DNA of 64,000 nucleotides from contig JAIXOU010000106.1 in assembly GCA_027486585.1 (NCBI GenBank), positions 1 through 64,000 of the forward strand, in the 5' to 3' direction. The position numbers and the translations under genes were made by a program. The notes beneath the pieces were generated by a model. The model did no database searches, was not told the origin of the DNA, and saw only the letters and a program-made list of their open reading frames with translations. Shown here piece by piece: positions 18,130 through 56,568 of this stretch; position 1 is the stretch's first letter, and the number at the start of each line of letters is the position of its first letter. The DNA is from Verrucomicrobiaceae bacterium (lineage in GTDB: Bacteria; Verrucomicrobiota; Verrucomicrobiia; Verrucomicrobiales; Verrucomicrobiaceae).

Positions 18130-18138
18130 GAGTCCGGC

Positions 18139-21378: not shown

Positions 21379-21402
21379 GTCAGATAAAAAAGGGCTCAGG
21401 TT

Positions 21403-22206
21403 TTAGCGATGGCAGGCTGTGCAGGAGTCAGGCGGCTGCACCTGCCAGTGTTTCTTGAGCTGTGTACCCACTTCAAGTTGGGTCACTTTCTTGCCAAATG
21501 TTGTGTCAGCGAGTGAAAGAAGATCTTCGAGACCCTTCGCAGTTTTGCCTTCAGCGATGACACTTGCGATATCATCAGCTTTCACCCCTTTACCAAGCAG
21601 ACTTTGGTAAAAAGCACTGCGGTCGAGCTGTTCCGGCTTGTAATTCAGATTGGTCACCTGATCCAACGGGCGCAGGTTCTTTTCTGGATTACGATGGCAA
21701 TCAAGGCACCAACCCATGGATTGTGGTTCGGCGTGCTTCACCACTTCCATCTCATTGATCTGACCATGGCAATTTTGGCAGGAGATACCACGGTTTAAAT
21801 GCGCGCTATGGTTGAAATACACATAGTCAGGCGCTTTGTGGACCTTGACCCACTCAATCGGCTTACCTGTCTCATTGGCCTTAATCACCTTCTCCAGTTT
21901 TGGGCTGGCAGATTTGATATTGCCTTTGCCTGGGCCATGGCAATTGAAGCAGGTTTGATTGGTCGGCACGTTGGCGTGGCTAGAACTCTCGACAAAAGAG
22001 TGGCAGTAGCGGCAGTCGAGACCGAGCTGACCAGCGTGCACTTTGTGAGAGAATGGCACAGGCTGAGTTGGCTCATAGCCAACCCGTGTGTATTTAGGCG
22101 TGAAATAATACGGCACCGCCAAGCTGGCGCCGAAAACGATGAACCCAGCCGCAACGGCTAGCTTCAAAGGCAGCCAATTGGTCCAGCGCGGAAAGAAGTT
22201 ACCCAT
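21403..22206 (-). CDS. actA: alternative complex III multiheme cytochrome ActA
   Basis: A 267-residue protein with one N-terminal membrane anchor (about residues 13-31, LAVAAGFIVFGASLAVPYYF) and five CxxCH haem-binding motifs (CRYCH, CFNCH, CQNCH, CLDCH, CTACH), in line with the pentahaem ActA of alternative complex III. It is the first gene of the operon. A perfect CRP-type palindrome lies 18-39 bases upstream of its start. It faces the periplasm and takes electrons from ActB. Confidence 0.95.
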   Translation of the reverse strand: MGNFFPRWTNWLPLKLAVAAGFIVFGASLAVPYYFTPKYTRVGYEPTQPVPFSHKVHAGQLGLDCRYCHSFVESSSHANVPTNQTCFNCHGPGKGNIKSASPKLEKVIKANETGKPIEWVKVHKAPDYVYFNHSAHLNRGISCQNCHGQINEMEVVKHAEPQSMGWCLDCHRNPEKNLRPLDQVTNLNYKPEQLDRSAFYQSLLGKGVKADDIASVIAEGKTAKGLEDLLSLADTTFGKKVTQLEVGTQLKKHWQVQPPDSCTACHR

Positions 22207-22429: not shown

Positions 22430-25400
22430 TCAAGGAGTCGGCTCAAGAACAACCTGACCGCTGAGAACGGTGGAAGTCTTGATGGTCTGACCAGGCTGTG
22501 GAAGCTGAGGCACCAGAACGAAACCTGCAGCTTTCCATTCTATGACGGAGGTGTTAGGGTCCTTAACTCTTGCCATGACCCCTTGGTAAGTCAGGTTGCG
22601 AACCAGTTCTTTCCTTGAATTCAGAATATCGACTTTACCATTGAAGGATCCAGCCGGCTTAGCAGGAAGCACAAAAGTCAAATTATTTGGGTTATTCGAA
22701 GGAAGGACAATCAATTGCGTAGTCTTGACCGGCGGCGCTGGATTGGTAATCGAGAGAACAGACATATCTAACTCGCTCGTCAACAACCCGCCTTCGGAGA
22801 ATTCTAGGCGTGCATTAATGGCTTTGTTGGCATTATTCACTAATCCACGGACGACTGCGCCATTTTCAACAGGCAGGTATCTACCACCCAGGACATCCAT
22901 GGTGATCGGAGAGAAGCCTTCATGATACAATAGGGACCTCACAGGTGAGGGAGCTGCGGCTTTATTCCAAGTCACCGTTCCATTAATGTAGCTATTCGGT
23001 GCAATGTCTGGAACAAGGGATGGAACCCCGTGCAAGGTGCCCAAGATCGGCGTAAAGGACGCAAAGACCGGCATTTTACCATCAGCCCCCAGAATCGTCG
23101 CCAGAGTAAAGGCATTTCCGTCAGCCGTGCGGCCAACTCCCGTAATCTTGCCATCCTTAGCCAGAGCCATGGTCGCAAAACCATTGCCCTGAGGTATTCT
23201 CAAGACACCCACTTGAGGATCACGAAGATCGAAGAGCATCGTGTAGTCACCGGGATTTGGAGGGTTATCGGCCGCCGAATAGCCCAAGCGCACACCTGTG
23301 CATGAGGCAGTTAACGGCACCGTTTGCAGATCCGTCAGATCAGCGGTCATTTCGCCAGCTGATGTCACGGTGAACTTTAACCTCAAGTTGGACTGCCCAG
23401 CCTTACGTTTAAACTCCGCCGTTCCTTCGACGTATGGCACGGTGTTGCCGACAATGATTGGAGCCACAGAGCCACTAGCGCTGGCACTCAGCCCACTGAG
23501 ATTCAGTTTGAGTGTATAAGCGCCTGCTGGCGTGATCGCCAAATCCACTCGACCACCCATATTCATCGTAGCAGGAGCACGATCAATGAGTCCAACGTAG
23601 GTTCCCTGCACTCCTGTGGGCAAGCCAAGGATCGTTATCCGTATACCCGTTCTGGTCACCGAGTTGGTGACAGCAGAAGGTTTACCTAAAGTATCAACGG
23701 TGTTGTAAACATTCGATGCTGTAATACTGACGTTTTGAGGGGCCGCCACAACGGTCGGCCTGCCGCTAATGAGCCCAGTCTTTGCATTGATCGTCAAACC
23801 TTTAGGTAGATTAGTTGCCGCATATTTGGTGGGCAAGGTGCGCAAATCAGACCCTACAACGACTTGGTAACTATAAGGAACTCCGACAACGCCTGTGGGT
23901 AGGCTGAAAGGAGACGCCCCTGGGATAGTTGGCGGAGCGTTAGGAACAGACAACTCCTGAAGGAATGCATCCAGAGACAAAGATGATTGGCCAGCTTTAA
24001 AGACTCGGCAAATATAACCTCTGCTATCCTCGGGCCGAACATTTTTGATCGTCATCGCTGGACTCTGTGTGCCAATAATCGACGGCCCTTCAGCAATCAC
24101 TCTTGTCTCAGGTTCGTCACTGTAACGCCATCTGTAACTGATCTTGGCTCCTAGCGGTGCTGCCGCAACAACACTCATGACCACATCACCCTTTTCAACC
24201 ACTCGAAGCTGCGGTTTTGAATCAAGCACGAAGATTTCGGCAATGGTCGATGTCGTCGATCCTGCATCATTTGAGACAAAGCAGGTGTACCTTGCTGCCG
24301 ATGCCAAGGTGGCTATGAACTTGTAGGTGGAGCTTGTCGCATTTGGAATGTTGTTATTGTTACTCTTCCATTGATACTTCAGCTTGAGTGGATCACCTGC
24401 GCTTGTGACTTTTAATTCCACCGGCTGACCTAAACGTACGAATTGTGAAACAGGCTGGTTCAGGGAATCAATACGAGGCAGAATATCATCATCTTGAATC
24501 GTCAAATCGAACGTTGATTGCGCCCCTAATGTCGTCGATCCTGATGGTACACCTAAAGTAAGTGTCAGCAGCTCATCCGACTCGCTCAATGAATCATTCA
24601 CCAAGGGAACCCGTATCCAAAAAGTTGTTTGACCAGGCGGGAAGCTGATAACGGAAGGTAAAGTGCCGTAATCATCATTGACCTCAGCTACTCCCGAGAT
24701 GGTAAGGGGACCGGGTAGTGTGGGAATGACTGGCACAGTCACCAACTCCGAGGACGGAGCTGATAGCTCAACCGCCACGAAATAGGAACCATTTCCTTCA
24801 TTTGTCGTATCATTAGCCAAGCCGAACCCAACACTGATGGCTGGTGGACTACCTGTTGTTTCAAAAACCATAATTTTACCGTATGTCCTGATACCATTCT
24901 CCACAGCAAAAGCTCGGAATGCATATTTAGTTCCCGACTGAAGTGCAGAGATGCTTTCCGTTATCGGGACAAGGCCTTCCTGATCGGAACTACCACCGCT
25001 AATCTCGATCAAATCCGCAAGCCTGCCTAACGGCCAATAATTAAAACCAAAACTTGCACCTGCTTTTCTGACAGTGATTTCAGCGTTAATATCAGCCGAC
25101 GTGTTTGTAACACTCGTAGCAGCAAGAGTTTGCACGGAAACAGTATCCAGCGCATCTAACAACCATAGGTCATTGAAGGCATTTGCAGCATTTGCGCCCC
25201 CCAAGAGCCAGAGATCGCCGGAGCTGTCGGTGAAGGCTGCCGAACCACGACGTGACCCAGGTGTGTTTGAAGGTGCCCCAACAAGAATCGACCCATAAAC
25301 TCCTGCGGTAGTCGGGCTCTTCAGTAGCGTCCATGATTTGCTGGTTAAATCAAAGCGCCACAAATCATTGACCAAGCCGGACCTAGTTTGTCCACCAAAC

Positions 25401-28400
25401 ATCCAAACTTCCTGATTGCCAGTGATCCAAGTCATCGAACCAGCTCTGCCGCTGGGTACATTGGAAGGATTCGTCACACCCAGCAATCCAGAAACAGTAG
25501 GCGCGCCGAGAGCTGGAGAGCCCTTGATCCATGACCAACGATTGGATTCTGGGTAATAAACCCAAAGATCATTGAGAAGTCCGACTGTCTTTGGTGCTGC
25601 ACCTAGGCCATTGCCGCCATAAAGGTAAAGCAAACCGTCATGGTCAACCCAACCAGAGGCAAAACTACGAGCTCCAGGATTAGCGACGCTGGAAATGCCT
25701 CCCAGTTCACCATAAACTCCCACGGCATTCAAACCGCTTTCTCCACTGACCCATGTCCAGGTATTCTCAGCCGGAATATACTTCCACAAATCGTTTAGCG
25801 GACCGGACACTGTGCCTGTTCCAGGTTGGCCTAGACCACCAAACAACCAAAGCGTATTTTCGCCATCCACCCAGGCTGTGGCACCCTGCCTTGCACCGGG
25901 TGTACTTGTGCTTGAGGAAGCTCCCTTGACACCATAGGTGCCATTCACATTCACGATGGAAGAGCCCTTCCACCATGTCCATTCAAGTGAATTTGGATCA
26001 AAGGACCAGAGGTCATTGAGTGCACCAGCTTTAGCACTTGTCTCATCAAAACCGTTGCCTCCGAACATCCAAAGCGTGCCATCCTGATCCAGCCAAGAAA
26101 CAGCTCCACTTCGCGCCCCAGGTTGATTGGTATCTTCACTTAATCCCTGTGCGCCATAGTTAGCTTTGGCATTCATACCATTGCTTCCTGAAACCCAGGT
26201 CCAAAGCCCAGTCATTGGATCGCGTTTCCACAAGTCATTCAAAAGACCGGCGACTTTGCCTTCAGCAAAGCCTTGACCACCAAAGATCCACAATGTGCCA
26301 TTAGGTTCAGCCCAGGAAACAAAATCACCGCGAGCACCTGGCATGTTTGCAGAATTTGCGGCACGGCGTGTACCATAAATACCTGACTGCTTGGCGATGT
26401 TTGGCCCCTGGGACCAAACCCAGTTCGGTGGACGCTTGGTGATGGTGATCGTCACAGCGGCCGGATTGGAAAACAGCGTGCCATTCGTCACCTGATACTC
26501 AAAACGATCCACACCGACAAAACCGGCTTTCGGGTTGTAGGTAAAGGTGCCATCTGGTTTCATCAGCAGTACACCATTTTTAACGTTCGCTGTGGCCACG
26601 ACACTGTAGGTCAAAGGTAGCGTGCTATTTGGATCCGTCGCTGGAAGCGGCGTCGATACCACGACCACGTCATCCTCGACACCACTGAACTCGTCTGAGT
26701 TAGCTTCCGGACCACCCACCACGATCGTCACAGTTGCAGGTGCTGAGGTTGTCATACCTTCCGTGACCGTGAAGGTAAATGTCGCAAGACCCACATAATC
26801 TGTCTCTGGCACAAACGTGAACGATCCAGTGTCCACATCAAAAGCACTGATCGTTCCATGCAATGGATTCGGATCCGTAACTTTTGTGAATCCAGCCGTC
26901 GAGTTGAACCTCGAAGCCAAAACTTGTCCATCCACGTCAACATTCTTCGGCGTGAAGACATTCGTCGCCAAAGCTGTGGGTGTAGCCGCCGTGACATTCA
27001 GCGTAATGACTCCAGGAGCGCTCGTCTGCCCACCGGCAACGACGCGGAACTCGAAGGTGTCCGTCCCGTAGAAACCCACATTCGGTGTGTAGCTAAAGAC
27101 TCCAGTGTTAGCGTTAAGAGCAACGCTGCCGGAATCAGGCTGCTTCGAAAGAAGGAAGACCGTGATGCTATCCCCTTCCTCGTCGGTGCCGACCAGGGTT
27201 CCGCTTAGCGTAGGACTTGTAAGCGTGGCGCTCGTGGCGACAGGCGCATCATTCACTGGGGTAATCGACACCGTTACAGCCGCAGCTGTGGAAGTGGCAG
27301 CGCCATCTGTTGCCGTGTATTGAAAAGAGTCCGTTCCAGAGAGGCTGGCATTCGTAGCAGTGTAAAAGAAGTTAGGACTTGTACCTGTTATCGTTCCATT
27401 CGTCGGGCCTGTCGATATGGTGTAGGTGATGGGTTCCTTATCGGCATCTGTACCTTTGAATGGAATGAGCATGGGCACATTCTCGACCACTTTCATGGCA
27501 ACCGCAGCCACCACAGGTAGGCTGTTGAATGAAGTGAAGGCCTGGGTGGCACCAACCACCGAACCATTGGTACTCTCAACCACCAATCTAAACGTATATG
27601 CCGTGTGAGGTGGCAATGCAGCTGCCACAAAAGTCATGGCTCTTGGCGGAGCATTAGCAGGAATAGTCACTTTGGGACTTCTCAGGCTCATCTCCGCCGT
27701 AGTACCGTATTCGAACCAGGCCGTAGCAGGTGCCGTGCCTGCACTTGCCAATCCATTCAAGGTAGCTTTGCCCAATACAATGAGCGTCGCAGGATTGGTT
27801 TGTGCTTTTGGTACGCCTGCCAGAGCTGATCCTAACGTCGTAAAGGTCAAAGTCCCACCTGGCGTTCTGCCCTGGCTATTCTCTGCCACTAAGCGATAGT
27901 GAATGAGTGTTGCAGCAGGCAATCCGCCAACCGGCACTGAGACGGTATTCAGTGAGTATGAGTTCGACAGCCGTGTTGGGGGTGTTTGATTTCCAAACGC
28001 AAGAGAAGTCCCCCATTCAATCCAGTAAGTCGTGGGTAAACCACCTGCCTGAACGGTCCCACCCAAAGTAGCATGAACATCACTAATCATCGCCGGCGGG
28101 GCGGAAGTGACGACCACTGGAGCGAGTCCAAACGAGGCCGTCTCAGTGGACGGGCCGGCGTCAAAGCTAGCCTTAATCTGCGCAGGCAGCATGGCACCGC
28201 CGTGGATTCTGACCGTATTGATGAATCCGCTGAAAGCCTCAGTGAAATCACGCAGCCCAGCTTCTGAACGATTAGCCCCAAGGAGCACCTGGTCATCCCA
28301 TTGATTCACACCAGCAACTGGCGTAACTGATCCAGACGGCACACCATTGATGTAAAGGGTTCGTGTTCCAGCAGACACAACCACGGCAAAGTGTGTCCAA

Positions 28401-31400
28401 GCTCCTACAGTAGGAGCAGGAACCCACGAAGTACCATCATCTGCGCCACTGTAGGTTAACCTCAATCTGCTAAATGGAGTGATATCTCTACCTTGGTTAA
28501 CCAAGGTTTCATTGCTGCCGATCGCCTGATTAAACGCCCATACTTCCAGCGTCTGATCGTCACCATAGCTAAAATCAATATCCGCCTTTGATGCACTTTC
28601 AAAAGCACTGCTGGTGCCATCAAACTGAACCCCAGGATAGCCGGTGCCAGCCACATCGGCTGAAACAGAAGGCGTGCCAACCTTGTCAAACGCACCCAAG
28701 GCTCCGCGGTTCATCCAGCTAGGTCCACCCGTAAAGTCCTGCGCACGTAGATCGACCCAGAGTTTACCTGCACTTGGCAGAACCTGCGGCACAAAAGTCA
28801 CATCCTCGCCGTAGGAAAATCCAAGAGCATTCCGAGAAACCACACGATAGTGATATTCGACTCCAGGCACTAAATTAGGGACATTCAATGTAACCACCGT
28901 CGGCACAGGCGAATTTGGCACAGGGATCGGAGCACTGGCGTTGTCATAAGAATCGGATGTTCCCCATTCAATCCAGGCCGTGGCAGGCATGCCAATAGAG
29001 GCAACCGTTCCATTAAGCGTCACGGATGTCGGGGTCAATCCGCTGACACCTGTGGTCACGGGGACTGGCACGGCAGGTGCATTTTGAACGGGTCCGACTC
29101 TGAAGTTGAAGAGGACATCAGCAGGCTTGAGAACGCCATCATGGATACGCATGGAGTTAATGTATCCCTGCATAAACTTACCCAGAACAGAAGAAGCATT
29201 TCTTGATGCACCCAGGGTGATAGCCTCAGATGAGGTGGCCAGAGTTAAACCAGGCACTGTTACTGCCTTAACACCGTTAATATAAAGGGTTGCTGGTTTT
29301 TTAGCTCCCTCATAGACATAGGCATAATGGTTCCAGCGAGCTAGCGGTGGCAATGTTTTGGCGGCGTAAGCAGCGTTGTTTTTTGCCACGGTTCCGTGCC
29401 TGACTGCGCCATCTGGTTGGGTTAAATTGCTATGGCTAATGGCCACTTGGGTGTCCACACCCTCTTTTCCCATATTCACAAGGGTGTCAGGGGATCCATA
29501 GCCTGGGTTATAAGCCCACACTTCGATCGTCCGATTTGCAGAACCAATGATTCCGGCCCAGGGATTTGGATCAGGGGAAGTAAAGGAAGGCGCAGCAAGT
29601 TCATAAGCCATCGTCTTCCCATCAAAGAAGACCCCTGGTAAACCGGTGCCGTGAACATTTGGGGAAACAAAAGTTGGGACTGCCGCTACAAAATCCCCCA
29701 AGGAGGTGCCTAAATTCTTCCAGGCATTTGTGCCAGCCGTACTATGGTTAGCCGAGGCATTGACGATCAGATTACCAGTGGTCAGATAGGGCACTGCGGT
29801 TGACACCTGGACTCCTCCGACGCGCGTTCCACCCAGACCAGAATCACTGACGGCCTCTAGCTGGTAATAAAGAATCGTTCCCTCAGGTAATCCTGTGATG
29901 GTTTGCGTCACCACCACAGGTTTGGTGCCGTTTGGCAGGCTGAACCATTCTTCCGGAGGCGGTGGCACTGATAGATTCGTTGGGCTATCTCCAGTTCTAA
30001 AATAGTATCTGAGGCTGCCTCGATTCGGGTTGATGGTACCCGCGAGGGTGATCGAGTTGGCGGTGTGTCCAGCATCCAAGGTCGTCACCACGGTTGGTGG
30101 AGCCTGCGTCCGGATCATCCGTACGATCCCTTTAGAGACTCCCATAGCATTGGTGGCTACAGCACGATAGTAGTACGTACCAGGGTATTTGAGGTTCCCT
30201 AAAAATTGACTCATGGGGACAAAACTCGTACCATTGCCCGCAGGGTTTTGATCGATGGTGCGGTTAGGTAAGGAGGCTGGTGAGGTGCCCCACTCAAAAT
30301 AGGAAGTTGTGATGAGGTTGCTTGCAATGTACTTCCCAGTTAAGGTTGCACTTGTGTGCGCAGGGCCCGTGATCGGGTCCGTGAATACCTCTGGGACCGC
30401 GTCATCTCGTAGAGTAACGGTATGGGTGCGTGTTCCGATATTAGCACCGACTGCATTCACCAATTCAAACTCAATTGTCTCATCGCCCTCCGGAGTGGTA
30501 TCTGGATTGGTAACAATAGCGAAAGTCTTCGACGTTGCTCCTGTTGTACTGAACCTTAAGAAGCCGGTTGTTGGTATTAACGGATCTAGATCTGTGGCTG
30601 GAATTTTAAGACTGTAGTCCACACCACGCCCGGTTGCGGATCCACCGATCAGTCTATATTGCACGGTCACCTCTCCAGTAGTGGGCAAGGAGCTAATGGA
30701 CACGGTCACATTCTGTTCCGTGGCTTTTAATGCAGTTTTTTCATTCACCGTGCTGGTTGCAGTCGAAAAACCCACCACTGGACTTGAACCTGGATAGCCT
30801 TCATCATCATCAATAACAATTGAGGATTTGCCCCACCTAATGCCATAGGAATTATCTATGTCTGGTTCGATTGAAACTACCAAGTCCCGACTCCCCCTTG
30901 GAATACTGTCATTAATGACATTGAGTTCTAAAGTGGCTCTATTTTGGGTAGGCTGAATAGTTACCACCCCCAAAGTCTGCGGAGGAGCCAAAGTATAATC
31001 CGTACCTAGTTCAGCTTTACCCGACAAAGAATAAAATACTTCCATTGGGTTAGCGATAGCATCACCAGATCCGGGCCTCCAGAATTGGAATTGAATTCTT
31101 CTGGCTGGATTCTCAGAGATATTATTCAGAGAGCCAGTGCGCTCAACAAAAGACACCGTAACACCGGGTGAATCTCTATCCAAAATGAGAACTGTGGCTT
31201 CAGTTTCAAACCCCAAACTGTAGTTTTGAGCCGAGCTAGGAAGCAGTTGTACCACAAGTTTTTCTGTGGGTTCAGCCACACCATCGTTTTTAATGGTAAT
31301 TGCAATGGTTTTGGATAAATCCTTTTCCAAAAATTCAATTTCTCCAGCTGGATCGGTCCCATACGGCGAGTTATAGTCCGAGTTAACTGTAGCAGTACTT

Positions 31401-34400
31401 TTCGCGGAAGAAATTTGATATCTTACTTTTATACTCGAACCCGTCGGCCCGGGAGCTGGGCGCTCGATTCTATACAACGTTCTTGTCTCATCCAATTCTA
31501 AAAATGGATCACTCAAAGGCACCAAGGTAAACTGACTAATATTGGTATCTTTGATGGTGATCACAGCCTCATTGGACAAACCAACGGCGTATTCAGGATC
31601 AGTTGCAAGACGGAGAACGACGGTTTGATCCAGTTCGTCTATGGAATCGGCAATTGGTACAATCAGGATGTCTGCAGAAAGCTCATTCGCTGGAATAACT
31701 GCCACACCTTCGATACGCCTGTAATCACTCCCTGAAAGAGCGCTGCCACCCAATGAAAACTTCACCAATAAATCTTCACCTATGTCCACGGCTGATCGTG
31801 TAACCACAAATCTAGCAGGTGTTGGGCTGGCTTCAGTACAGTTAGGTACTGGCGCTGTGACTTGAACGATCGGCTGATCGTTGTCCAAAACAAAAAAGGT
31901 TGACTGATTTGACAGGCTATTTTTCACATAAGAGGCACTCGTCTTCAATGAGACGCTAAAACGCTCTGTCCCTTCCGCATACGGATCGTTAATTGCCGAG
32001 ATGCTAAAGGTAGCCTCGGTTTGGCCAACTGGTATCTCAACCGTCAATGGTGCAGAAAAATCTGAACCGTTTGTAGCTATGTCAGTGCCATCCAATGGGT
32101 CCTTCAATGGATAGTCTAAATTGACCGTGAGCGGATTGGTCACACTGCCATCTCTCGTCACACGAACTATGCCTCTATCCCCATTTTCGCCGATGCTTGG
32201 ATCATCAACGGACAACTTGACCTGCGGCAGTGTTGTATCGTTATCAAGGATGGCAACGACAGCACTTCTCTGGCCACTTACATGATACGGCACCGTCCTT
32301 GGAGCTGCGTCCGTTGCGTAGGCATAGGATGCATCAGGAATATCAACAACAGCATATTCAGTGCCTTCTGCATGGGTGTCATTCACTGGTGTAATGGTCA
32401 TGATAATGGTCGCCTGGCCATCCCTAAAACTCACCCCCTCGCAGCCCCTCAGCTCATCTCGATTATTGCCATTATAAACTTGGCCAATGGGTAATTCAAC
32501 GGTTGATGGAAGAGCCCTCCAACTCAATCGGTAATCTGAATCTAAATTTGGGTCTAGACCAGGGACTATATCTGGGTCTCTAGTTGCCGTTCCCTGGCTC
32601 CTCAGCATGACTGGCACTGTGAGAATCCCTGAGCTGCTACTTCTAGTCAGCGTAATGGTGCCTGATGCACCTCCTTCAGTTGCAGTAGCTGTCGTCACCA
32701 CCACATTGACATTCGGGACGATGTCCGCAGACTCCCGCCAATTGAGTCCGACTTTATCCGTACCTAGAATTGGTTCATAAGTCGCCACCCCTTGAGGGAT
32801 GTAAATTTTGGGATAATTGGCTGTTGCAACCGTTATTGTGAAACCTGGTGCGAGGTTAGTCAGCGTGTAGTTTCCATCAGCATCTGTATAGATAGAACGG
32901 AATTCAGCTGGGCCATCCTGGGATGTATTGCTAGCTGGGTAAATATTTTCCAGAGGGTCATTGGAAACCAAAACGCCTTCTACAGGCAGATTGTTAGGTG
33001 TCCCATCTCGGATCGTGCCGGAGACTATGGGTTCAAACACTATCTCATTGCCTTGTTGGTCCAGACCCTGAACTTCCACCAATAAAGATTTGATGGTCCG
33101 CAGACCTTTCATGTCACTGACCACACACAACACCGAATATCTGCCTGGTTGTGCCCACCGCTTTGTCTGAATTCTCGAGTTATCCGTCGAAAAGGTTTTA
33201 TCTCCAAAATCCCATGAATACGCTAAAGCATCGCGCTGGGCATCCGTCCCAAAGGCAGTGAATGTGATGCTCTCTTCTACTCTGATCACGCGCGTGTTAG
33301 CCTCAATGGTAAGGCTAGGTTTTTGATTTCCAGGGAAGGGACCACGGTTTACCACAACGTCCATGTACGGGATGGCGGTTTTATCTTTAACTGTATCACT
33401 TTTGAATATCGGGGTGATGTGCAGATCATTGTCTTTGTCTGAGTAGGTCTGCCCGACAACCAGTCCAGCATCATCACGACTATCTGCGCCTGCTGCAGCA
33501 TTACCTGGCCGTGAGCCAGGAGTCATGTCAAGTAAATGAGCGCCTCCATTACTACCAAAGGCTTGGTTATTTCTAAAGCCAGTGCCCCAAGCACTCCAGT
33601 TGACCATAAGACCGTTCATGAAGCTTGGGATCGTCAGGTGAGTCTGTCTGAATTCAAACCAATAATCTCTCTCAGAGTCCATCTTCACAGCCAACGCATA
33701 GCGCTTATCCGCATCTGCCCGATCCTGATCTCCCTGATAAATCCTGTATGTACCATTGGCCTTCACTTGGTGAACGGCCCCAGGGCTGAGCCATCCTAAA
33801 ATGGACTTATGAACGGATACCATTGGCCCCATGACGACTCCGCCAGTAGAACCCATCACGTCGAACTTATTACCATACTCCTGGTTTAAGCCGGGACCTG
33901 TCAGCGTTGGTTGGTTAGTCACCCAGTAATTGGCGTGAAACAGTCCCAAATTATGGCCTAACTCATGGGTCAAAACGGCCACTGAAGAAGTTTTAAGCCA
34001 AACTCCTCCGGCTCCCACATAGCCCAATCCTCCAAATGATCCAGGCCCACCCACATACTCAACCACATCCAAGTCAAAACTATTGGCGTCGTAGCCCATT
34101 CTGGCGGCTATCGTCAAAGCATGATCGCGCAAGACGAATTCTCCATTGGGTTGATTGCCTATAACACTAGTAGAGGAGTTGTACCAAGTCTGAGGGTAAG
34201 GGAGCACAATCAGCGGGGCTACGGTAGGCGTCAGGTAAAACTGACCATAACTGTTTGTCATGTAGTATTCAGTGGCCTTCCTGAGATTTTCATAGCAACT
34301 GGCTTCAGTCTGCGGATCACGCATGACGTCGGGGAACGCGACGCGGAGATAAAGCAGCTTTTTGGTGCCTGTGGTCCAGCCTGGAGGCACGTTGAATGGT

Positions 34401-35389
34401 GTTGCCCCGCCTCCAGTTCCGCCTTCAGCCAAGACTTTTTTACCCCAATGGGCATCCGCTTCGTCCTGAGTCAATTGATCACCAAATTGGCCGATGTGGC
34501 CACTAGCACACAAGAAATAAACTTTACGATTATCCTCCACAACGGCCGCTTTCGCGGTCACGGGGGCAGGTTGACCATTTGCCGACTGCTCGATAGGCGT
34601 GGTCTTTCCAGAAATAGGACAGACCTCCACAGTAGGTTTATCTGGATTCGGACGTTCTCCGACTTCCAAGACGCGCACAGGTGAATCCAAAACTGCCAAT
34701 TCCCCACCCACGGCAACACCACTCACACGTGTGGATTTACGGCTCCTCATCTTGCTGCGCGAGCCATAAAGGTAGGCATTGTAAAAATTCCCAGCACCCG
34801 CAGATTCAGGCTCAAACAAATGTCGCGCAGAAGCTGTTTTATTTGAACTCTGAGCGCTTTCCTCAGGAACAACACCCAGCACCATCATACTGCCGCGGTC
34901 ATTCACTCGGCTTTCAAGTCGTTGCTCAATTTCATCAGGCAGGTCCTGGCGCACCACCATCGGGACAGCCAATTCCAGAGCTAACTTCGGATCATTTGGG
35001 ATGGTCTGCTTCATGGCTACACGATGCAAATCAGCTAATTCTTGCCCCTTGCTGATGAGTTTGGCGCGGTCGGCCGGCTCCGCAGCAAAGTAACTCTCAG
35101 CCCAATTTCTGAAGTTTTTTACCGCATCAGGAGCGGCTGCCGTCACCTTTGGCACCTTAACTGCTCCTGCAGGTTGGATGACAACATGCCTGATCTTTGG
35201 TTGGATGACTTGGGCAGGAACTTCGACAGACGAAATCTCGTTTTTGGGCTTTACCGAGAGCTCCGTTTTTGCTGGAGCTTTTGCTGATTGATCCGGTCCA
35301 CGACCTTGATACCAAGACCATAAGATCAGGCTACAGACGCCTATCGTAAGAGACTGGATGATTAACTTCGAGGTGATGTGCTTTTTCAT
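22430..35389 (-). CDS. giant secreted multidomain protein with M6-like metalloprotease domain
   Basis: 4,319 residues in one uninterrupted frame. Rough domain order: signal/anchor helix (1-30); M6-like metallopeptidase (about 360-690) with HELGHNLGLFH, zinc ligands H475, H479 and H485; PKD (about 700-770); carboxypeptidase regulatory-like (about 800-870); a series of Calx-beta domains (about 890-1660) with acidic calcium-binding loops; Fn3-like segments; two LamG-like domains (about 1950 and 2280, each with TIEVWAYN/TLEVWAFN); cadherin-like tandem repeats (about 2640-2980); a six-blade Kelch propeller (about 2995-3430, each blade with a GG...NDLW pattern); another Calx-beta, two Ig-like domains and a putative-Ig domain; and a C-terminal module from about 3930. 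That last module is shared with the CAP protein at 52328. It is likely a cell-surface adhesin or protease. Confidence 0.9.
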   Translation of the reverse strand: MKKHITSKLIIQSLTIGVCSLILWSWYQGRGPDQSAKAPAKTELSVKPKNEISSVEVPAQVIQPKIRHVVIQPAGAVKVPKVTAAAPDAVKNFRNWAESYFAAEPADRAKLISKGQELADLHRVAMKQTIPNDPKLALELAVPMVVRQDLPDEIEQRLESRVNDRGSMMVLGVVPEESAQSSNKTASARHLFEPESAGAGNFYNAYLYGSRSKMRSRKSTRVSGVAVGGELAVLDSPVRVLEVGERPNPDKPTVEVCPISGKTTPIEQSANGQPAPVTAKAAVVEDNRKVYFLCASGHIGQFGDQLTQDEADAHWGKKVLAEGGTGGGATPFNVPPGWTTGTKKLLYLRVAFPDVMRDPQTEASCYENLRKATEYYMTNSYGQFYLTPTVAPLIVLPYPQTWYNSSTSVIGNQPNGEFVLRDHALTIAARMGYDANSFDLDVVEYVGGPGSFGGLGYVGAGGVWLKTSSVAVLTHELGHNLGLFHANYWVTNQPTLTGPGLNQEYGNKFDVMGSTGGVVMGPMVSVHKSILGWLSPGAVHQVKANGTYRIYQGDQDRADADKRYALAVKMDSERDYWFEFRQTHLTIPSFMNGLMVNWSAWGTGFRNNQAFGSNGGAHLLDMTPGSRPGNAAAGADSRDDAGLVVGQTYSDKDNDLHITPIFKSDTVKDKTAIPYMDVVVNRGPFPGNQKPSLTIEANTRVIRVEESITFTAFGTDAQRDALAYSWDFGDKTFSTDNSRIQTKRWAQPGRYSVLCVVSDMKGLRTIKSLLVEVQGLDQQGNEIVFEPIVSGTIRDGTPNNLPVEGVLVSNDPLENIYPASNTSQDGPAEFRSIYTDADGNYTLTNLAPGFTITVATANYPKIYIPQGVATYEPILGTDKVGLNWRESADIVPNVNVVVTTATATEGGASGTITLTRSSSSGILTVPVMLRSQGTATRDPDIVPGLDPNLDSDYRLSWRALPSTVELPIGQVYNGNNRDELRGCEGVSFRDGQATIIMTITPVNDTHAEGTEYAVVDIPDASYAYATDAAPRTVPYHVSGQRSAVVAILDNDTTLPQVKLSVDDPSIGENGDRGIVRVTRDGSVTNPLTVNLDYPLKDPLDGTDIATNGSDFSAPLTVEIPVGQTEATFSISAINDPYAEGTERFSVSLKTSASYVKNSLSNQSTFFVLDNDQPIVQVTAPVPNCTEASPTPARFVVTRSAVDIGEDLLVKFSLGGSALSGSDYRRIEGVAVIPANELSADILIVPIADSIDELDQTVVLRLATDPEYAVGLSNEAVITIKDTNISQFTLVPLSDPFLELDETRTLYRIERPAPGPTGSSIKVRYQISSAKSTATVNSDYNSPYGTDPAGEIEFLEKDLSKTIAITIKNDGVAEPTEKLVVQLLPSSAQNYSLGFETEATVLILDRDSPGVTVSFVERTGSLNNISENPARRIQFQFWRPGSGDAIANPMEVFYSLSGKAELGTDYTLAPPQTLGVVTIQPTQNRATLELNVINDSIPRGSRDLVVSIEPDIDNSYGIRWGKSSIVIDDDEGYPGSSPVVGFSTATSTVNEKTALKATEQNVTVSISSLPTTGEVTVQYRLIGGSATGRGVDYSLKIPATDLDPLIPTTGFLRFSTTGATSKTFAIVTNPDTTPEGDETIEFELVNAVGANIGTRTHTVTLRDDAVPEVFTDPITGPAHTSATLTGKYIASNLITTSYFEWGTSPASLPNRTIDQNPAGNGTSFVPMSQFLGNLKYPGTYYYRAVATNAMGVSKGIVRMIRTQAPPTVVTTLDAGHTANSITLAGTINPNRGSLRYYFRTGDSPTNLSVPPPPEEWFSLPNGTKPVVVTQTITGLPEGTILYYQLEAVSDSGLGGTRVGGVQVSTAVPYLTTGNLIVNASANHSTAGTNAWKNLGTSLGDFVAAVPTFVSPNVHGTGLPGVFFDGKTMAYELAAPSFTSPDPNPWAGIIGSANRTIEVWAYNPGYGSPDTLVNMGKEGVDTQVAISHSNLTQPDGAVRHGTVAKNNAAYAAKTLPPLARWNHYAYVYEGAKKPATLYINGVKAVTVPGLTLATSSEAITLGASRNASSVLGKFMQGYINSMRIHDGVLKPADVLFNFRVGPVQNAPAVPVPVTTGVSGLTPTSVTLNGTVASIGMPATAWIEWGTSDSYDNASAPIPVPNSPVPTVVTLNVPNLVPGVEYHYRVVSRNALGFSYGEDVTFVPQVLPSAGKLWVDLRAQDFTGGPSWMNRGALGAFDKVGTPSVSADVAGTGYPGVQFDGTSSAFESASKADIDFSYGDDQTLEVWAFNQAIGSNETLVNQGRDITPFSRLRLTYSGADDGTSWVPAPTVGAWTHFAVVVSAGTRTLYINGVPSGSVTPVAGVNQWDDQVLLGANRSEAGLRDFTEAFSGFINTVRIHGGAMLPAQIKASFDAGPSTETASFGLAPVVVTSAPPAMISDVHATLGGTVQAGGLPTTYWIEWGTSLAFGNQTPPTRLSNSYSLNTVSVPVGGLPAATLIHYRLVAENSQGRTPGGTLTFTTLGSALAGVPKAQTNPATLIVLGKATLNGLASAGTAPATAWFEYGTTAEMSLRSPKVTIPANAPPRAMTFVAAALPPHTAYTFRLVVESTNGSVVGATQAFTSFNSLPVVAAVAMKVVENVPMLIPFKGTDADKEPITYTISTGPTNGTITGTSPNFFYTATNASLSGTDSFQYTATDGAATSTAAAVTVSITPVNDAPVATSATLTSPTLSGTLVGTDEEGDSITVFLLSKQPDSGSVALNANTGVFSYTPNVGFYGTDTFEFRVVAGGQTSAPGVITLNVTAATPTALATNVFTPKNVDVDGQVLASRFNSTAGFTKVTDPNPLHGTISAFDVDTGSFTFVPETDYVGLATFTFTVTEGMTTSAPATVTIVVGGPEANSDEFSGVEDDVVVVSTPLPATDPNSTLPLTYSVVATANVKNGVLLMKPDGTFTYNPKAGFVGVDRFEYQVTNGTLFSNPAAVTITITKRPPNWVWSQGPNIAKQSGIYGTRRAANSANMPGARGDFVSWAEPNGTLWIFGGQGFAEGKVAGLLNDLWKRDPMTGLWTWVSGSNGMNAKANYGAQGLSEDTNQPGARSGAVSWLDQDGTLWMFGGNGFDETSAKAGALNDLWSFDPNSLEWTWWKGSSIVNVNGTYGVKGASSSTSTPGARQGATAWVDGENTLWLFGGLGQPGTGTVSGPLNDLWKYIPAENTWTWVSGESGLNAVGVYGELGGISSVANPGARSFASGWVDHDGLLYLYGGNGLGAAPKTVGLLNDLWVYYPESNRWSWIKGSPALGAPTVSGLLGVTNPSNVPSGRAGSMTWITGNQEVWMFGGQTRSGLVNDLWRFDLTSKSWTLLKSPTTAGVYGSILVGAPSNTPGSRRGSAAFTDSSGDLWLLGGANAANAFNDLWLLDALDTVSVQTLAATSVTNTSADINAEITVRKAGASFGFNYWPLGRLADLIEISGGSSDQEGLVPITESISALQSGTKYAFRAFAVENGIRTYGKIMVFETTGSPPAISVGFGLANDTTNEGNGSYFVAVELSAPSSELVTVPVIPTLPGPLTISGVAEVNDDYGTLPSVISFPPGQTTFWIRVPLVNDSLSESDELLTLTLGVPSGSTTLGAQSTFDLTIQDDDILPRIDSLNQPVSQFVRLGQPVELKVTSAGDPLKLKYQWKSNNNNIPNATSSTYKFIATLASAARYTCFVSNDAGSTTSTIAEIFVLDSKPQLRVVEKGDVVMSVVAAAPLGAKISYRWRYSDEPETRVIAEGPSIIGTQSPAMTIKNVRPEDSRGYICRVFKAGQSSLSLDAFLQELSVPNAPPTIPGASPFSLPTGVVGVPYSYQVVVGSDLRTLPTKYAATNLPKGLTINAKTGLISGRPTVVAAPQNVSITASNVYNTVDTLGKPSAVTNSVTRTGIRITILGLPTGVQGTYVGLIDRAPATMNMGGRVDLAITPAGAYTLKLNLSGLSASASGSVAPIIVGNTVPYVEGTAEFKRKAGQSNLRLKFTVTSAGEMTADLTDLQTVPLTASCTGVRLGYSAADNPPNPGDYTMLFDLRDPQVGVLRIPQGNGFATMALAKDGKITGVGRTADGNAFTLATILGADGKMPVFASFTPILGTLHGVPSLVPDIAPNSYINGTVTWNKAAAPSPVRSLLYHEGFSPITMDVLGGRYLPVENGAVVRGLVNNANKAINARLEFSEGGLLTSELDMSVLSITNPAPPVKTTQLIVLPSNNPNNLTFVLPAKPAGSFNGKVDILNSRKELVRNLTYQGVMARVKDPNTSVIEWKAAGFVLVPQLPQPGQTIKTSTVLSGQVVLEPTP

Positions 35390-38855: not shown

Positions 38856-38948
38856 AGCAGTGTTTAAATATCTATATATGTTAAAGATTTTAGCTCTTAC
38901 AGCAAACCAGCGGTTGCCGAGGCAATCCGCTGGTTAGCAGTCGGTATT

Positions 38949-40142: not shown

Positions 40143-40189
40143 AAATATGGAAGATGGATGCATTAACGATTAGAAGCACCAACCCTGAA

Positions 40190-52327: not shown

Positions 52328-55300
52328 TCACGGCTTTTTCTGCATTAGGACAGAGCCAGAAAGGATCTGGCTATTGGTTGGTGTGGTGGCAGGGGTAGTG
52401 TCGCGTGGGAGCTCTGGAAGCAAGAAGTGGCCAGCTCCGATTGAAGAACCACCGTCCTGGGTGAGAATGCCAGCGAAGTTACCAGTGCGTTTGAGTTTCT
52501 TTCCAACAAAGGCCGAGGCGGTGCGCAGCTCGGGGTCTTCTAAAACAAAGGTACCTGTAAAAAGGCCGGTGGTAGCACTGAGGCCGGTCAGTTTCACACT
52601 CCCAGGATTCTCTGCGGAAAGCGCGATCGGTAGCTTGGCGACGTTCTTGGCAAGAATATCAAACGCCGCAACATTGGGCTTGATGGCTGCTGAGGTGAGT
52701 CCGCCATCAGCAAAGCTGAGCTGGGCTTTATCACCTAATGCCATGCCTAGGATCAGAGCTGGCGCGGTTGGCACGGTGAATTTAGAGCCGACGGCGCTGA
52801 TTTCCACAGTGTCCACAAGGCCATAGCCTAGTGGATAGGTGCGGGAGGTGGCATTAGGCGGACGTATCCATGATACGGTACTGGTGCCGCTGATGATGTC
52901 GGTGGCCATATCTATGTTGATCCGACCAACCAGTGATCCTTTGGAAAGTAAGGTGCCGAAAATCAGGACTTGTCCCTGCGGCCCTAAAAAAGTGGCAGAG
53001 GTGTAGGATTCTCCATCACCAGTTTTCCCAGCAACTGAAAGCTTACCATCTTTTGCGAGTGTGAATGAACCATAGCCATCTCCACGTGGCATTGAGGCAG
53101 GGAGAGCAGGTGGTTTAAGTGCAAAGGTGAATAGTTTGGGTACATCAGTGGCCGGATTCTGCTGTATGCCAGTTGCTTTCCAAATTGAACGCCAACCTTG
53201 GATCTGCGCTGTATTTGTGCCGTCGGTGACGCTGGCGTTGGTGAGGCGATCCGTAGCAGTATCCAAAGAGAACCTCAAAGTAAGCGGTAAGAGTGTGCCT
53301 GTGCGCTTGATGGTGACGGTGGCTTCAGGTGCAGCGGGTGGAATGGCCTGACTGATATCCATGGCCCCAGTCAGAGCATATCGCTGGGCTCCTAAATTGA
53401 TTGAGCCACTTACAAAACCCGTATTGGCGATGGTCAGATCCACGCGCCCACCAAGATTGCCATTGAGTGTGACATTTCGCGCGACGACTCCGGTATAAAC
53501 GCCTTCAACATTCTGAGGTATGGGAGCAATAAAGATCTCATCTGTCGTGATTGTGAAACCAAGACTGTTTCGTGCCGTCAAGGTAACCGTGTAGGGCTTG
53601 GCAAGGGTAGGTTTGCCAGTAATCAGACCTGTGGTCGCGTTGAGTTTCAGACCAGGAATCGTAGGCGTCATCGAGTAACTGCTGGCCGTAATTTCCGTTC
53701 CTACGCCACACTTGATCTGATGCGTATAACTACTGCTGACAATTCCATCTGGCATGCCTTGAGATGCCGTAATCTGAGGCTTGGCGTTGAAGACTTTGAC
53801 ATCGAATGTCCCTGCGAGAAGCATTCCAACATTAGGCACACTGGCTTCACAGGTATAAACGGCTGAGCTGCTATTCGCATTGAGATTCGCAAGGACGAGG
53901 GTCAATGGCGTGGGAGTAGTTAAGGTCTCAATGATGGGCTGTGCCCCTGAAGTCTTTTTCCAAGTCAGCGTCGCTGCACCTGAGACGGCCACGGCTGGCC
54001 TGATCGTGGTGCCAGCGAGTTGCACGAAATTTTGCGTCACCGGCCTGACCACCGCCAAGACCACAGGCGGGGTTTCGATGAATTCTCCTCCGGCACTCAC
54101 AACGACGCTGTAGTTACCGCCGTCCGTTAACTTCACAGAGCTGAAGTTAAGTGTAGATGAAACAGCGCCCTTGATGATGACGCCGTTCTTTTTCCACGTG
54201 TAAATGGGTGTCAGCGTCGGGTGAAAAGCACTAACTGTTAATGAGGCTTGCGCAGTTTCATTTCTAATCAGGGCTACAGGCGGCGCCATAATCGTCGGCG
54301 CATTGCTGCTGCGACCCGTGAGGGCAATGTCGAACGGATTTTCATTCGCATCATTGCTGGCGATTCTCAGGGTAGCCGTCCGCACGCCAGTCGCGGTTGG
54401 CGTGAAGGTGACGGTGAAAGTCGTGCTAGCGGCTGGAGCAAGGCTGAGGGACCCAAGACTATCTGAAACATATTCACTGGCATGAACGCCAACAATACTG
54501 AGTGAGAGTCCGCTTAAATCCTCTGTACCAGTATTTTTGATGGTGAAGGTGCGAATCTCCGACTGTGCTGGATACTTCGTGCCAAAATCAATGGTGGACG
54601 CGCCATCGATCAATCCTGAAGCAGCCGGCTGTTCGACTTCAATCTCAGCGAGGCTAGGAGGACCATCGGTGACTAAGACTGCTTTTACGGGACCAAAGCC
54701 CAAGTCTCTTGATGAGATGATCGGAGATACAGCTAAAAGATAACTACCAGCAGAGGGCGGAGTGAACACAAACGCAGTGCCTGCAGGTAGGGTCGAAGTC
54801 GTGGCTGAACTGGTATCAATCAAATTTCCAAAAGTGATGTCATCAATGTACCAACCAAAGCCATCTGTCGTCTCCTTGAAAAAAGTGCCACTACTAAACG
54901 AAAAGTTGAAGCGAAGCCTGATGGTCGCCCCCGCATAGGCGGCAAGTGAAGCCGTGCGCGCTTGGAAGCCAGTCTCCCCAGGTAATGTAACCCCAGGTTT
55001 AGAGACCCCAGCTTGAGCATAAATTTGCTCCCATGAAAGGCCATTGTTTCTAGAAACTTCCACTCGGGCCACCTGGGCGGTTGTCGCAATTCCAAGACGA
55101 CTGCGGAAGGACAAGCTGGCACCTGCTTTCACATAAAAGCTATTTTGATAAGTTAATGTCTGTGTTCCAGAAACGGGATTGGCCAGACGGTAGCTGCCTG
55201 CGCCTGTGAACTTGATCGAAGTGGACGTGGCAGTGTAACTCCCTTTCTGATCGATGGTCATGCGATTTAAGTTATCGGCTCCATCATTAGCGGTGTTAAC

Positions 55301-56461
55301 ATCAAGCACGGCATGACCTTTATAACCTGTGGCACCTAAAACTGAGTTATAGCTGTAATTGGATGCTAACCCTGTTTGAATCACATCACTTCCGGTCAGT
55401 GTCGCTGGTACAAAAGCAGGCTTAAAATCCACCTTCACATTATTAGCATTAGTAACAACGGCGCTGTCCGTGCCATTCGCTCCAAGGCCTGTAAAAGTGA
55501 TTGCGCGTGTAGCGTCTGCTACTGAGACTGGCACGGCATAGCCACCTGAATTGGAGGTGATGGCATGAAAGCTGGAGCCGTCCACATTCACGGTCAGTCC
55601 ACCGATGCCTTCACCCAGGTCGTAGAAGTTGTTGCCATTGAGGTCGTAATAGGCCACGCCGGTGACAAAGGGCGTATTTGTCTGCGTCGTGCCAAAGTTC
55701 TGGGTGACCAGATGCGGCCCTACGGATTTAGTATCGACTGGGGGATTGCTTCCAAGAATAACTTTGTTTCCCAAAACAACGCCGATTCCAACCTCTCGAA
55801 AATCACTATGATCTCGAAAATCACTATGAATGTTCACTCGGTGTCCTCGCCCAGTCTGCATGCCGTTGTCCGTACCGTTAGCGCCTGAACCCCAGTCCAC
55901 TTGAAAGCCTTCATGACCATGCACGGTGTTACTGGCAAAACAGTAAACATTTTCACCAAGGTTTGCCCAATCATAACCCTGCGCTTCAACACGCTTATCG
56001 TCATATGTGCCGTCGCTGCTTTCGTGAGTCTGCTGGGCGCTATTAAATTGATACTCTGTGTGTAATCGTGCTGCATTAGTGAGTAGCCTGTTCATCGCAA
56101 GCGGTTGCCTCACTGGCAGAGCTGCGAATTCACTTTTCATCACGTTCAAATTAACTTTATATTGGGCAAAGGCCTGCAATGAATTAGGTTCGGTCGTTGT
56201 CGCCAATCTTATCCCTTCAGCCGTGGGATTGGCGCGGGCTCGATTGATCAATTCTAAATACAGCTGCTCTTCATCTGTCGGCTGACCGATAGAATACGCA
56301 GTCGTTTGAATCTGAAAATCTAATTTGGCTACACTGGCTGCACTGCTCTTCAGCTCACGGTGAAGAGGCGCTGGCGGATTCGGCGGTAACGGAATCGTAG
56401 CTTCTTGAATTTGTGCCAGGGCAGGAACTGCCAATAATATGCACAGTAAATAATATTTCAT
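52328..56461 (-). CDS. large secreted CAP-domain protein
   Basis: About 1,377 residues. Signal peptide (1-16); CAP/SCP-type domain (about 45-250) with the family His/Glu residues in RLHTEYQ, HESSDG, ANLGENVYC and GHRVNIHSDF; a short Asp/Asn-rich DLNGNNFYDLGEG segment like SdrD B-repeats (about 265-320); a jelly-roll-like segment with GFGWYIDDITFGN; a choice-of-anchor/HYDIN-like domain (about 625-720); Ig-like and putative-Ig domains; and a C-terminal module shared with the giant protein, including GRVDLTI and a tail with FLLPELPRD and LSGSVLM. The ATG at 56461 is chosen to give a clean signal peptide. It carries an 18-base tandem duplication in the CAP domain. Confidence 0.85.
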   Translation of the reverse strand: MKYYLLCILLAVPALAQIQEATIPLPPNPPAPLHRELKSSAASVAKLDFQIQTTAYSIGQPTDEEQLYLELINRARANPTAEGIRLATTTEPNSLQAFAQYKVNLNVMKSEFAALPVRQPLAMNRLLTNAARLHTEYQFNSAQQTHESSDGTYDDKRVEAQGYDWANLGENVYCFASNTVHGHEGFQVDWGSGANGTDNGMQTGRGHRVNIHSDFRDHSDFREVGIGVVLGNKVILGSNPPVDTKSVGPHLVTQNFGTTQTNTPFVTGVAYYDLNGNNFYDLGEGIGGLTVNVDGSSFHAITSNSGGYAVPVSVADATRAITFTGLGANGTDSAVVTNANNVKVDFKPAFVPATLTGSDVIQTGLASNYSYNSVLGATGYKGHAVLDVNTANDGADNLNRMTIDQKGSYTATSTSIKFTGAGSYRLANPVSGTQTLTYQNSFYVKAGASLSFRSRLGIATTAQVARVEVSRNNGLSWEQIYAQAGVSKPGVTLPGETGFQARTASLAAYAGATIRLRFNFSFSSGTFFKETTDGFGWYIDDITFGNLIDTSSATTSTLPAGTAFVFTPPSAGSYLLAVSPIISSRDLGFGPVKAVLVTDGPPSLAEIEVEQPAASGLIDGASTIDFGTKYPAQSEIRTFTIKNTGTEDLSGLSLSIVGVHASEYVSDSLGSLSLAPAASTTFTVTFTPTATGVRTATLRIASNDANENPFDIALTGRSSNAPTIMAPPVALIRNETAQASLTVSAFHPTLTPIYTWKKNGVIIKGAVSSTLNFSSVKLTDGGNYSVVVSAGGEFIETPPVVLAVVRPVTQNFVQLAGTTIRPAVAVSGAATLTWKKTSGAQPIIETLTTPTPLTLVLANLNANSSSAVYTCEASVPNVGMLLAGTFDVKVFNAKPQITASQGMPDGIVSSSYTHQIKCGVGTEITASSYSMTPTIPGLKLNATTGLITGKPTLAKPYTVTLTARNSLGFTITTDEIFIAPIPQNVEGVYTGVVARNVTLNGNLGGRVDLTIANTGFVSGSINLGAQRYALTGAMDISQAIPPAAPEATVTIKRTGTLLPLTLRFSLDTATDRLTNASVTDGTNTAQIQGWRSIWKATGIQQNPATDVPKLFTFALKPPALPASMPRGDGYGSFTLAKDGKLSVAGKTGDGESYTSATFLGPQGQVLIFGTLLSKGSLVGRINIDMATDIISGTSTVSWIRPPNATSRTYPLGYGLVDTVEISAVGSKFTVPTAPALILGMALGDKAQLSFADGGLTSAAIKPNVAAFDILAKNVAKLPIALSAENPGSVKLTGLSATTGLFTGTFVLEDPELRTASAFVGKKLKRTGNFAGILTQDGGSSIGAGHFLLPELPRDTTPATTPTNSQILSGSVLMQKKP
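55795..55830. repeat. 18-bp tandem duplication inside the CAP domain
   Basis: Two copies of an 18-base unit, 55795-55812 and 55813-55830, match in 17 of 18 positions. In protein the result is HSDFRDHSDFRE, where the family normally has a single copy next to VGIG. It is in frame and inserts six residues. Confidence 0.8.
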
Positions 56462-56568
56462 AGATATGGTTAAACCTGCCTCAATGCCCTCCTTCACACA
56501 AGATTAAAAAGTGCGACTCAGACCTTCAGGGATGAGAAATCCTTCTTTCAATCCTGACCTATCTAGAC

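Follow-up and report, generated by a model that had tools for sequence, protein, structure and literature searches.

Sorting domains at the C-terminus of secreted proteins are a known kind of element. In the type IX secretion system (T9SS) the C-terminal domain, or Por secretion tail, is a folded beta domain repeated over dozens of secreted proteins. In the type XI secretion system (T11SS), as outlined in PMC12282271, diverse effectors are directed to a Slam protein of the outer membrane by an eight-stranded barrel at their C-terminus, and the PEP-CTERM tail, in the account given in PMC1569441, was proposed to send proteins outside together with exopolysaccharide. Here we describe a C-terminal module of about 400 residues, probably a new, large, tandem-barrel example of this kind, which ends two proteins encoded in a 64,000-nucleotide stretch of DNA (hereafter the window) from a Verrucomicrobiaceae bacterium (assembly GCA_027486585.1, contig JAIXOU010000106.1, positions 1 to 64,000 of the forward strand).

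The module resembles T11SS cargo in that its second predicted barrel is close in fold to the C-terminal barrels of fHbp, NHBA and TbpB, with middling Z scores of about 5 to 9. It differs in comprising two barrels and a third beta part, the second barrel not being the last domain, in lacking both a match to cargo barrels at the sequence level (Pfam, PDB) and, by eye, a canonical lipobox in the two window proteins, and in coming from a genome in which no Slam was found. Like PEP-CTERM, it tails many unrelated signal-peptide proteins per genome, and at a locus beside guaB it occupies the end of the giant protein that bears PEP-CTERM in a module-negative clade. However, the module consists of 400 residues, predicted to be folded, whereas PEP-CTERM is a motif, a transmembrane helix and a basic tail within about 25 residues; no PEP motif, transmembrane helix or basic cluster was seen in the module tails, and no PEP-CTERM model of Pfam or NCBIfam matched them. 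The module is also several times longer than the T9SS C-terminal domain. T9SS tail families, for which Pfam and NCBIfam presumably hold models, were absent from the matches of 22 tails to these libraries at E ≤ 1, the T9SS machinery itself not having been searched for. Finally, the Verru_Chthon cassette (TIGR02600/02598/02599/02596), encoded beside some module-bearing giants, differs in being a minor-pseudopilin-like gene set that occurs with and without the module. Among top-ranked literature matches, judged by title and start of abstract, there was no description of this domain or of large-protein surface display in Verrucomicrobiota, and the term 'Verru_Chthon cassette' was not found in the papers searched.

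Results

A shared C-terminal block in two large proteins

The two proteins, a giant of 4319 amino acids (aa) and a protein of 1389 aa, and the parts which they share are as follows.

22430..35389, minus strand: giant, 4319 aa, with signal-like N-terminus, M6-type metalloprotease-like region, PKD, Calx-beta, LamG, cadherin-like, Kelch, Ig, He_PIG and module (Pfam/NCBIfam)
24269..24478, minus strand: Ig_3 domain opening the shared block of the giant (Pfam PF13927; BLASTP block from residue 3672)
23699..23908, minus strand: He_PIG (putative Ig) domain directly before the module of the giant (Pfam PF05345, 35.8 bits)
22433..23620, minus strand: C-terminal module of the giant, residues 3924-4319 (BLASTP and profile match to the 1389-aa protein and 34 further open reading frames of the genome)
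52328..56497, minus strand: 1389-aa secreted protein with choice-of-anchor D/ASH, Ig and module (Pfam/NCBIfam)
54095..54298, minus strand: Ig_3 domain opening the shared block of the 1389-aa protein (Pfam PF13927; BLASTP block from residue 766)
52331..53542, minus strand: C-terminal module of the 1389-aa protein, its last 404 residues, the stretch that was modelled (BLASTP, profile, AlphaFold)

Whole-protein comparison by BLASTP gave one genuine match (132 bits, E 3e-34), joining residues 3672-4319 of the giant to residues 766-1389 of the shorter protein. In the block so delimited an Ig domain comes first, a He_PIG-like domain follows, and the module, a tail of about 400 residues, closes it. 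When the tails are compared alone (400 aa each) they align over their full length at 27.5% identity (95.9 bits, E 3e-26). The remaining matches between the two proteins are at chance level (E 0.6 or worse), so the passengers differ, as a preliminary description of this DNA had held. That description, made from the sequence alone, had listed a shared series of motifs, and all twelve are found in order, in residues 3864-4317 of the giant and 949-1387 of the 1389-aa protein. It had also let the shared block begin at the putative-Ig segment; the He_PIG domain does belong to the block, but the BLASTP match starts earlier, at the Ig domain before it. The label of 'CAP' protein given to the shorter protein is not confirmed here: Pfam found no CAP domain in it at E ≤ 0.1.

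No family was known to the preliminary description for the tail, and this holds: Pfam and NCBIfam name many domains upstream, and in neither protein is the tail covered by one of their models. Among 22 tails, Pfam gave an isolated chance-level match in one (E 0.06) and NCBIfam three single matches, again at chance level (best 0.01). Nine distant relatives of the tail gave two single Pfam matches (E 0.19 and 0.35), a PDB sequence search returned two chance matches (E 0.5-0.6), and the module had no match among plasmids. The tails end in LSGQVVLEPTP (giant) and LSGSVLMQKKP (1389-aa protein), and both lack a hydrophobic helix.

The module recurs on many probably exported proteins of one genome

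In the genome that the window comes from (6.5 Mb, 97% complete), a profile built from the two tails made 37 matches, which fall in 36 open reading frames (ORFs); by a refined profile, 30 of these have 0-17 residues after the module. A 22-row alignment of the module omits 14 of the 36 ORFs, these being weak, partial or followed by further sequence. Judged by a crude hydrophobicity script, a signal-like N-terminal peptide is present in 40 of the 46 ORFs with a visible start, from this and related genomes; a further 21, whose 5' end is open, lie outside this count. Thirteen further module proteins were scanned, and among their passengers are a P-domain subtilase, an M64 peptidase, CotH/LTD/beta-helix, NHL, RCC1 with ASH, a DUF5122 propeller, Calx-beta and Ig/He_PIG arrays; no cytoplasmic enzyme was found among the 13. 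The preliminary description had named two outcomes that would count against it, a profile that finds no further proteins and a module on cytoplasmic enzymes, and neither was seen among the proteins scanned. The same C-terminal domain on dozens of unrelated passengers of one genome, most of them predicted to be exported, is what a general surface-sorting domain would be expected to show.

The genome also holds 136 He_PIG matches, and a 9861-aa ORF rich in He_PIG repeats lies on contig 55 (L283, L284).

Presence of the module is a clade trait

Of 59 genomes of the window's family, 27 are module-positive (E ≤ 1e-5) and 32 have no copy. Among the positives 25 have at least 14 copies, one has three and one has one, so presence is nearly all-or-none; the survey scored the best 32 candidates in rich genomes, and copy numbers near 32 are lower bounds. 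On a guaB tree of 54 genomes (five were left out, four without a match at 1e-100 and one with a stop), the window's genus, for which the survey counted 18 positive and 21 negative genomes, splits into two clades with good support, one positive in 18/18 genomes and the other negative in 19/19; the tree does not resolve the two as sisters, nor their order relative to g4 and g11. Positives also occur in the groups g4 and g8-g10. With the genomes of one and three copies counted as positive, the module label requires four changes on this tree, at least three of them forced; shuffled labels require 18.3. The module is thus a trait of clades rather than one that varies independently from species to species, as if the whole set had come or gone together.

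Across the phylum, at least 22 of 288 genomes match, from at least 14 of 151 genera, with the best six candidates per genome scored. In 13 stretches from other families 17 module copies were read (located with null2 off; E 5e-11 or better with null2 on), and each of them has 0-87 residues after it before the ORF, or the available sequence, stops. A profile from one such family, of another class, found this relative of the domain in 47 of its 56 genomes, with up to 22 matches each, some of them partial. These matches extend the domain family widely across Verrucomicrobiota, so that the profile search of genome and phylum proposed by the preliminary description did find the further members it looked for.

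A search for related loci with a 4-row alignment matched 118 stretches, of which 30 were confirmed, representing 29 loci whose records are all Verrucomicrobia/Verrucomicrobiaceae, Prosthecobacter or Brevifollis. Brevifollis gellanilyticus is among the organisms with the module (locus L087). E-values obtained with null2 off are inflated for low-complexity giants, and the weak module flags on L135, L136, L137 and L138 were rejected as artefacts of this kind, their genomes (G026, G038, G041) scoring 0.

At the guaB-linked locus the module stands where relatives have PEP-CTERM

Beside guaB-guaA lie a giant gene rich in repeats and, behind it, a Verru_Chthon cassette. In two cassettes scanned, proteins A, B, C and D match NCBIfam TIGR02600, 02598, 02599 and 02596, and more weakly GspK, a GspI-type protein (XpsI), GspJ and GspH/G. 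We compared loci of this kind (L136, L137, L139, L141, L150, L151, L154 and L240-L275), 34 of them with a guaB-linked cassette. In module-positive genomes the cassette has the composition A-C-D in 14/14, and in all 12 cases where the end of the giant is visible it is formed by the module. In module-negative genomes the composition is A-B-C-D in 20/20, and the gene before the cassette has a PEP-CTERM-like end, recognised by pattern and eye, in 16 of the 18 visible; the other two have a different upstream ORF (L275, whose PEP-CTERM flag is an error of the pattern, was counted as without a PEP tail, and L139 has another ORF, of 867 aa, upstream). BLASTP with three B proteins found the GspI-like B gene in none of the 14 positive cassettes and in all 20 negative ones. 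Four loci (L249, L251, L266, L273) end before the giant, and the cassette is missing from the fetched guaB-side stretch in eight further positives and four negatives. The cassette of G000 (L256, A-C-D, with module) was left out of the 14 and 12, being on a different contig from guaB, and L099 was not counted, as it is probably the same genome as G031.

Three giant ends of each kind were compared, those of positives reading Ig-Ig-He_PIG-module and those of negatives running from repeats straight into PEP-CTERM. We treat the giants at this locus as orthologous because of synteny; the A proteins have their best matches mostly to each other across the positive/negative divide, with exceptions. Some positives keep PEP-CTERM giants elsewhere (L148, L149).

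Cassettes often lie behind repeat-rich giant genes (L083:3348-10117, L099:11559-18808 and the 34 guaB loci), and in L083 a module protein lies upstream of a full A-B-C-D cassette. The giant of G021 (L150) has the module followed by a short end with VPEP and no membrane helix, possibly by chance or as a PEP-CTERM relic.

The module is predicted to contain two small barrels

AlphaFold modelled the tail of the 1389-aa protein from a 28-row alignment with a predicted local distance difference test (pLDDT) score of 89.9 and a predicted template modelling score of 0.87. The model is all beta except for a few short turns, and divides into three parts.

53177..53515, minus strand: first predicted eight-stranded beta-barrel of the 1389-aa protein, about model residues 10-122 (AlphaFold pLDDT 89.9; VIA-align residues 8-123)
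52772..53170, minus strand: second predicted eight-stranded beta-barrel, about model residues 125-257 (second AlphaFold model, pLDDT 89.4; VIA-align)
52331..52756, minus strand: third predicted all-beta part, with longer strands, about model residues 263-404 (both AlphaFold models)

In VIA-align, barrel 1 (residues 8-123) is matched by Cap15 (Z 9.7, root mean square deviation (rmsd) 3.1, 106 aligned), quinohemoprotein amine dehydrogenase (9.5), streptavidin (up to 9.4) and TbpB (8.3). Barrel 2, from the remainder modelled alone (pLDDT 89.4), is matched by Ail (Z 9.5), fHbp (9.2, rmsd 2.9, 107 aligned), NHBA (8.7) and TbpB (7.2 and less), with OmpX and OmpA also among the matches. Mean strand lengths are 7.8 and 7.6 residues in barrels 1 and 2, charged residues make up about 20-24% of the polar faces, and none of the 28 tail stretches (a few of which stop short of the true end) terminates in F, Y or W. 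Because the strands are short, the polar faces charged and a terminal aromatic residue absent, both barrels are likelier, on the model, to be soluble than membrane-embedded. There are 0-2 cysteines per tail and the near-invariant positions are mostly glycine, and with these features the tail does not look like an enzyme. Profile comparison for internal repeats gave no match of barrel 1 to barrel 2 or of barrel 2 to part 3, and a 50% probability over 35 columns for barrel 1 against part 3, a weak similarity that gives a hint of a triplication.

The two window genes, their relatives and neighbours

The M6 metalloprotease match of the giant scores under its curated cut-off. The probable start of the 1389-aa protein is an ATG 12 codons in (MKYYLLCILLAVPALAQ), with a signal-peptide-like N-terminus, and neither window protein has a canonical lipobox by eye. 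Long forms of the 1389-aa protein (1062-1513 aa) were found in 12 genomes, every one module-bearing, while module-negative genomes matched it with short forms only (375-518 aa, 33-40% identity). A relative of the protease part of the giant from G050, at 97% identity, is module-bearing according to the family genome survey, and in G047 a separate 635-aa module ORF lies within the same stretch as a protease-giant relative.

Directly downstream of the giant (window 16654-22206) are NrfD, iron-sulfur and multihaem cytochrome genes, which we take to be alternative complex III-like. Between the two module genes (window 36666-40163) lie genes for a ParA/Wzc-like ATPase and an outer-membrane barrel, perhaps for polysaccharide export.

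Discussion

On balance we favour the reading that the module is a modular C-terminal sorting domain, a folded tail that would be read by an outer-membrane component so that its passenger is displayed outside. Judged from the sequences, a C-terminal role in sorting or anchoring is likely; that the module sorts its passengers to the surface is what we infer, and that an outer-membrane component reads it is our guess. A Sec-type signal would bring module proteins into the periplasm. Its tail, some 400 folded residues made up of two barrels and a third beta part behind a stalk of Ig and He_PIG domains, would then be recognised by a component of the outer membrane that serves in export or docking, so that the variable N-terminal region is displayed outside, much as C-terminal barrels mark type XI (Slam) cargo. 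The preliminary description had recognised a pattern of surface anchoring or secretion, with which the signal-like N-termini, the extracellular passengers and the position shared with PEP-CTERM agree; the role may be either anchoring or secretion. We would put forward a more specific proposal tentatively: that Verrucomicrobiota may possess an undescribed dedicated export system whose label would be the tandem-barrel tail, on which dozens of giants per genome would depend. The set would have been gained or lost together, and in one clade it would have taken the place of PEP-CTERM on a syntenic giant as the adjoining pseudopilin cassette lost its GspI-like subunit.

Several observations weigh against a sorting role. 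The preliminary description had asked whether the module is always C-terminal, and the 30 ORFs that end within 17 residues of it stand beside six exceptions. Three are neighbouring tandem paralogues on contig 115 (L046, L054, L055) in which Ig-type sequence of 107-456 residues comes after the module, another is a 3435-aa ORF with an internal copy and also a partial second module at its end, and the others are one ORF with 137 residues after the module and one partial match. Of 19 relatives of the protease part of the giant, three carry the module (G009, G017, G034) and 16 showed none, 10 of these coming from module-positive and six from negative genomes, with two end-incomplete; 12 of the 16 share another recurrent tail (such as ...RFMRVRVT; L163-L178). 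The exchange of module and PEP-CTERM is a single event on one branch of the tree, and the sequences of the giants do not settle their orthology, since giants of positives and negatives match with medians of 120-176 bits and the giants of another locus (L148, L149) match the negatives about equally well (medians 150 and 156 bits). The fold scores are middling and a small barrel is a common shape; Foldseek with the whole tail gave a best E of 6e-3, and with the second piece three rows barely below 1e-3 with poor TM-scores.

Nor was any partner machinery for the module found. Exosortase (PF09721) is present in 59/59 family genomes, with or without the module, and therefore does not track it. PEP-CTERM is likewise in 59/59 and does not separate positives from negatives; together with the PEP-CTERM giants kept by some positives, this means that both tails coexist. 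Verru_Chthon protein C, in 56/59 family genomes, both positive and negative, does not track the module either. Clustering of neighbours over 76 loci and the window (families in at least three loci) gave Verru_Chthon A, in four loci, as the sole recognised secretion-like family. The Slam family (PF04575) had no match in the window's genome and none in 17 of the 18 other module-bearing panel genomes, the 14 control genomes also scoring 0, so that sensitivity is not shown by the controls. It just exceeded the cut-off (22 bits) in two of 40 panel genomes, at 24.4 and 22.4 bits, one of them positive and one negative. With Slam absent from the window's genome and marginal in two of 40, we do not file the module as T11SS cargo; that it is genuine T11SS cargo, as the fold matches of barrel 2 to fHbp, NHBA and TbpB might suggest, is highly improbable given also the lack of sequence similarity to cargo barrels.

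The main rival to export is retention by surface binding, the barrels attaching the protein to a surface glycan, exopolysaccharide or surface protein after exit by a general route. We regard this as possible, if somewhat doubtful. It would agree with several small barrels in a row, with a clade-wide presence that fits a clade-specific surface polymer, and with a position where relatives have PEP-CTERM, a system which PMC1569441 ties to exopolysaccharide; the most conserved columns, however, are mostly glycine. It is unlikely that the module is a spacer or an adhesive domain that multiplied through duplication, with no role in sorting and C-terminal by happenstance. Copies with sequence behind them do exist and the neighbouring He_PIG and Ig domains are promiscuous, as the number of He_PIG matches in the genome illustrates, but such shuffling sits poorly with the terminal position of most copies in this genome and all 17 elsewhere, with the alternation with PEP-CTERM at one locus and with near all-or-none presence per genome.

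The Verru_Chthon cassette raises a further possibility, that the module is the recognition tail for a pseudopilus of the type II secretion system kind, tipped by the GspK/I/J/H-like proteins A-D. Its attraction is that tail type and tip composition change together, the B subunit being found in none of the 14 positives and in all 20 negatives, and that cassettes directly follow module-bearing giants. We nevertheless consider it distinctly unlikely: the linked change is one tree branch, the module protein of L083 precedes a full A-B-C-D cassette, protein C occurs in positive and negative genomes alike, and the window's genome has three protein C matches for 36 module ORFs. An integral outer-membrane barrel of the autotransporter (type V) kind would account for an all-beta C-terminal domain and for Ail, OmpX and OmpA among the fold matches of barrel 2, but the strands are short for a membrane span, the polar faces are charged, the tails lack a terminal aromatic residue and no Pfam autotransporter barrel matches them, which makes this very unlikely.

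The domain picks out 36 candidate surface proteins in the window's genome and further sets across the phylum. The existence of related clades that have or lack it, together with a locus at which it stands in for PEP-CTERM, provides a natural comparison for finding the partner genes of a putative C-terminal sorting domain in Verrucomicrobiota.

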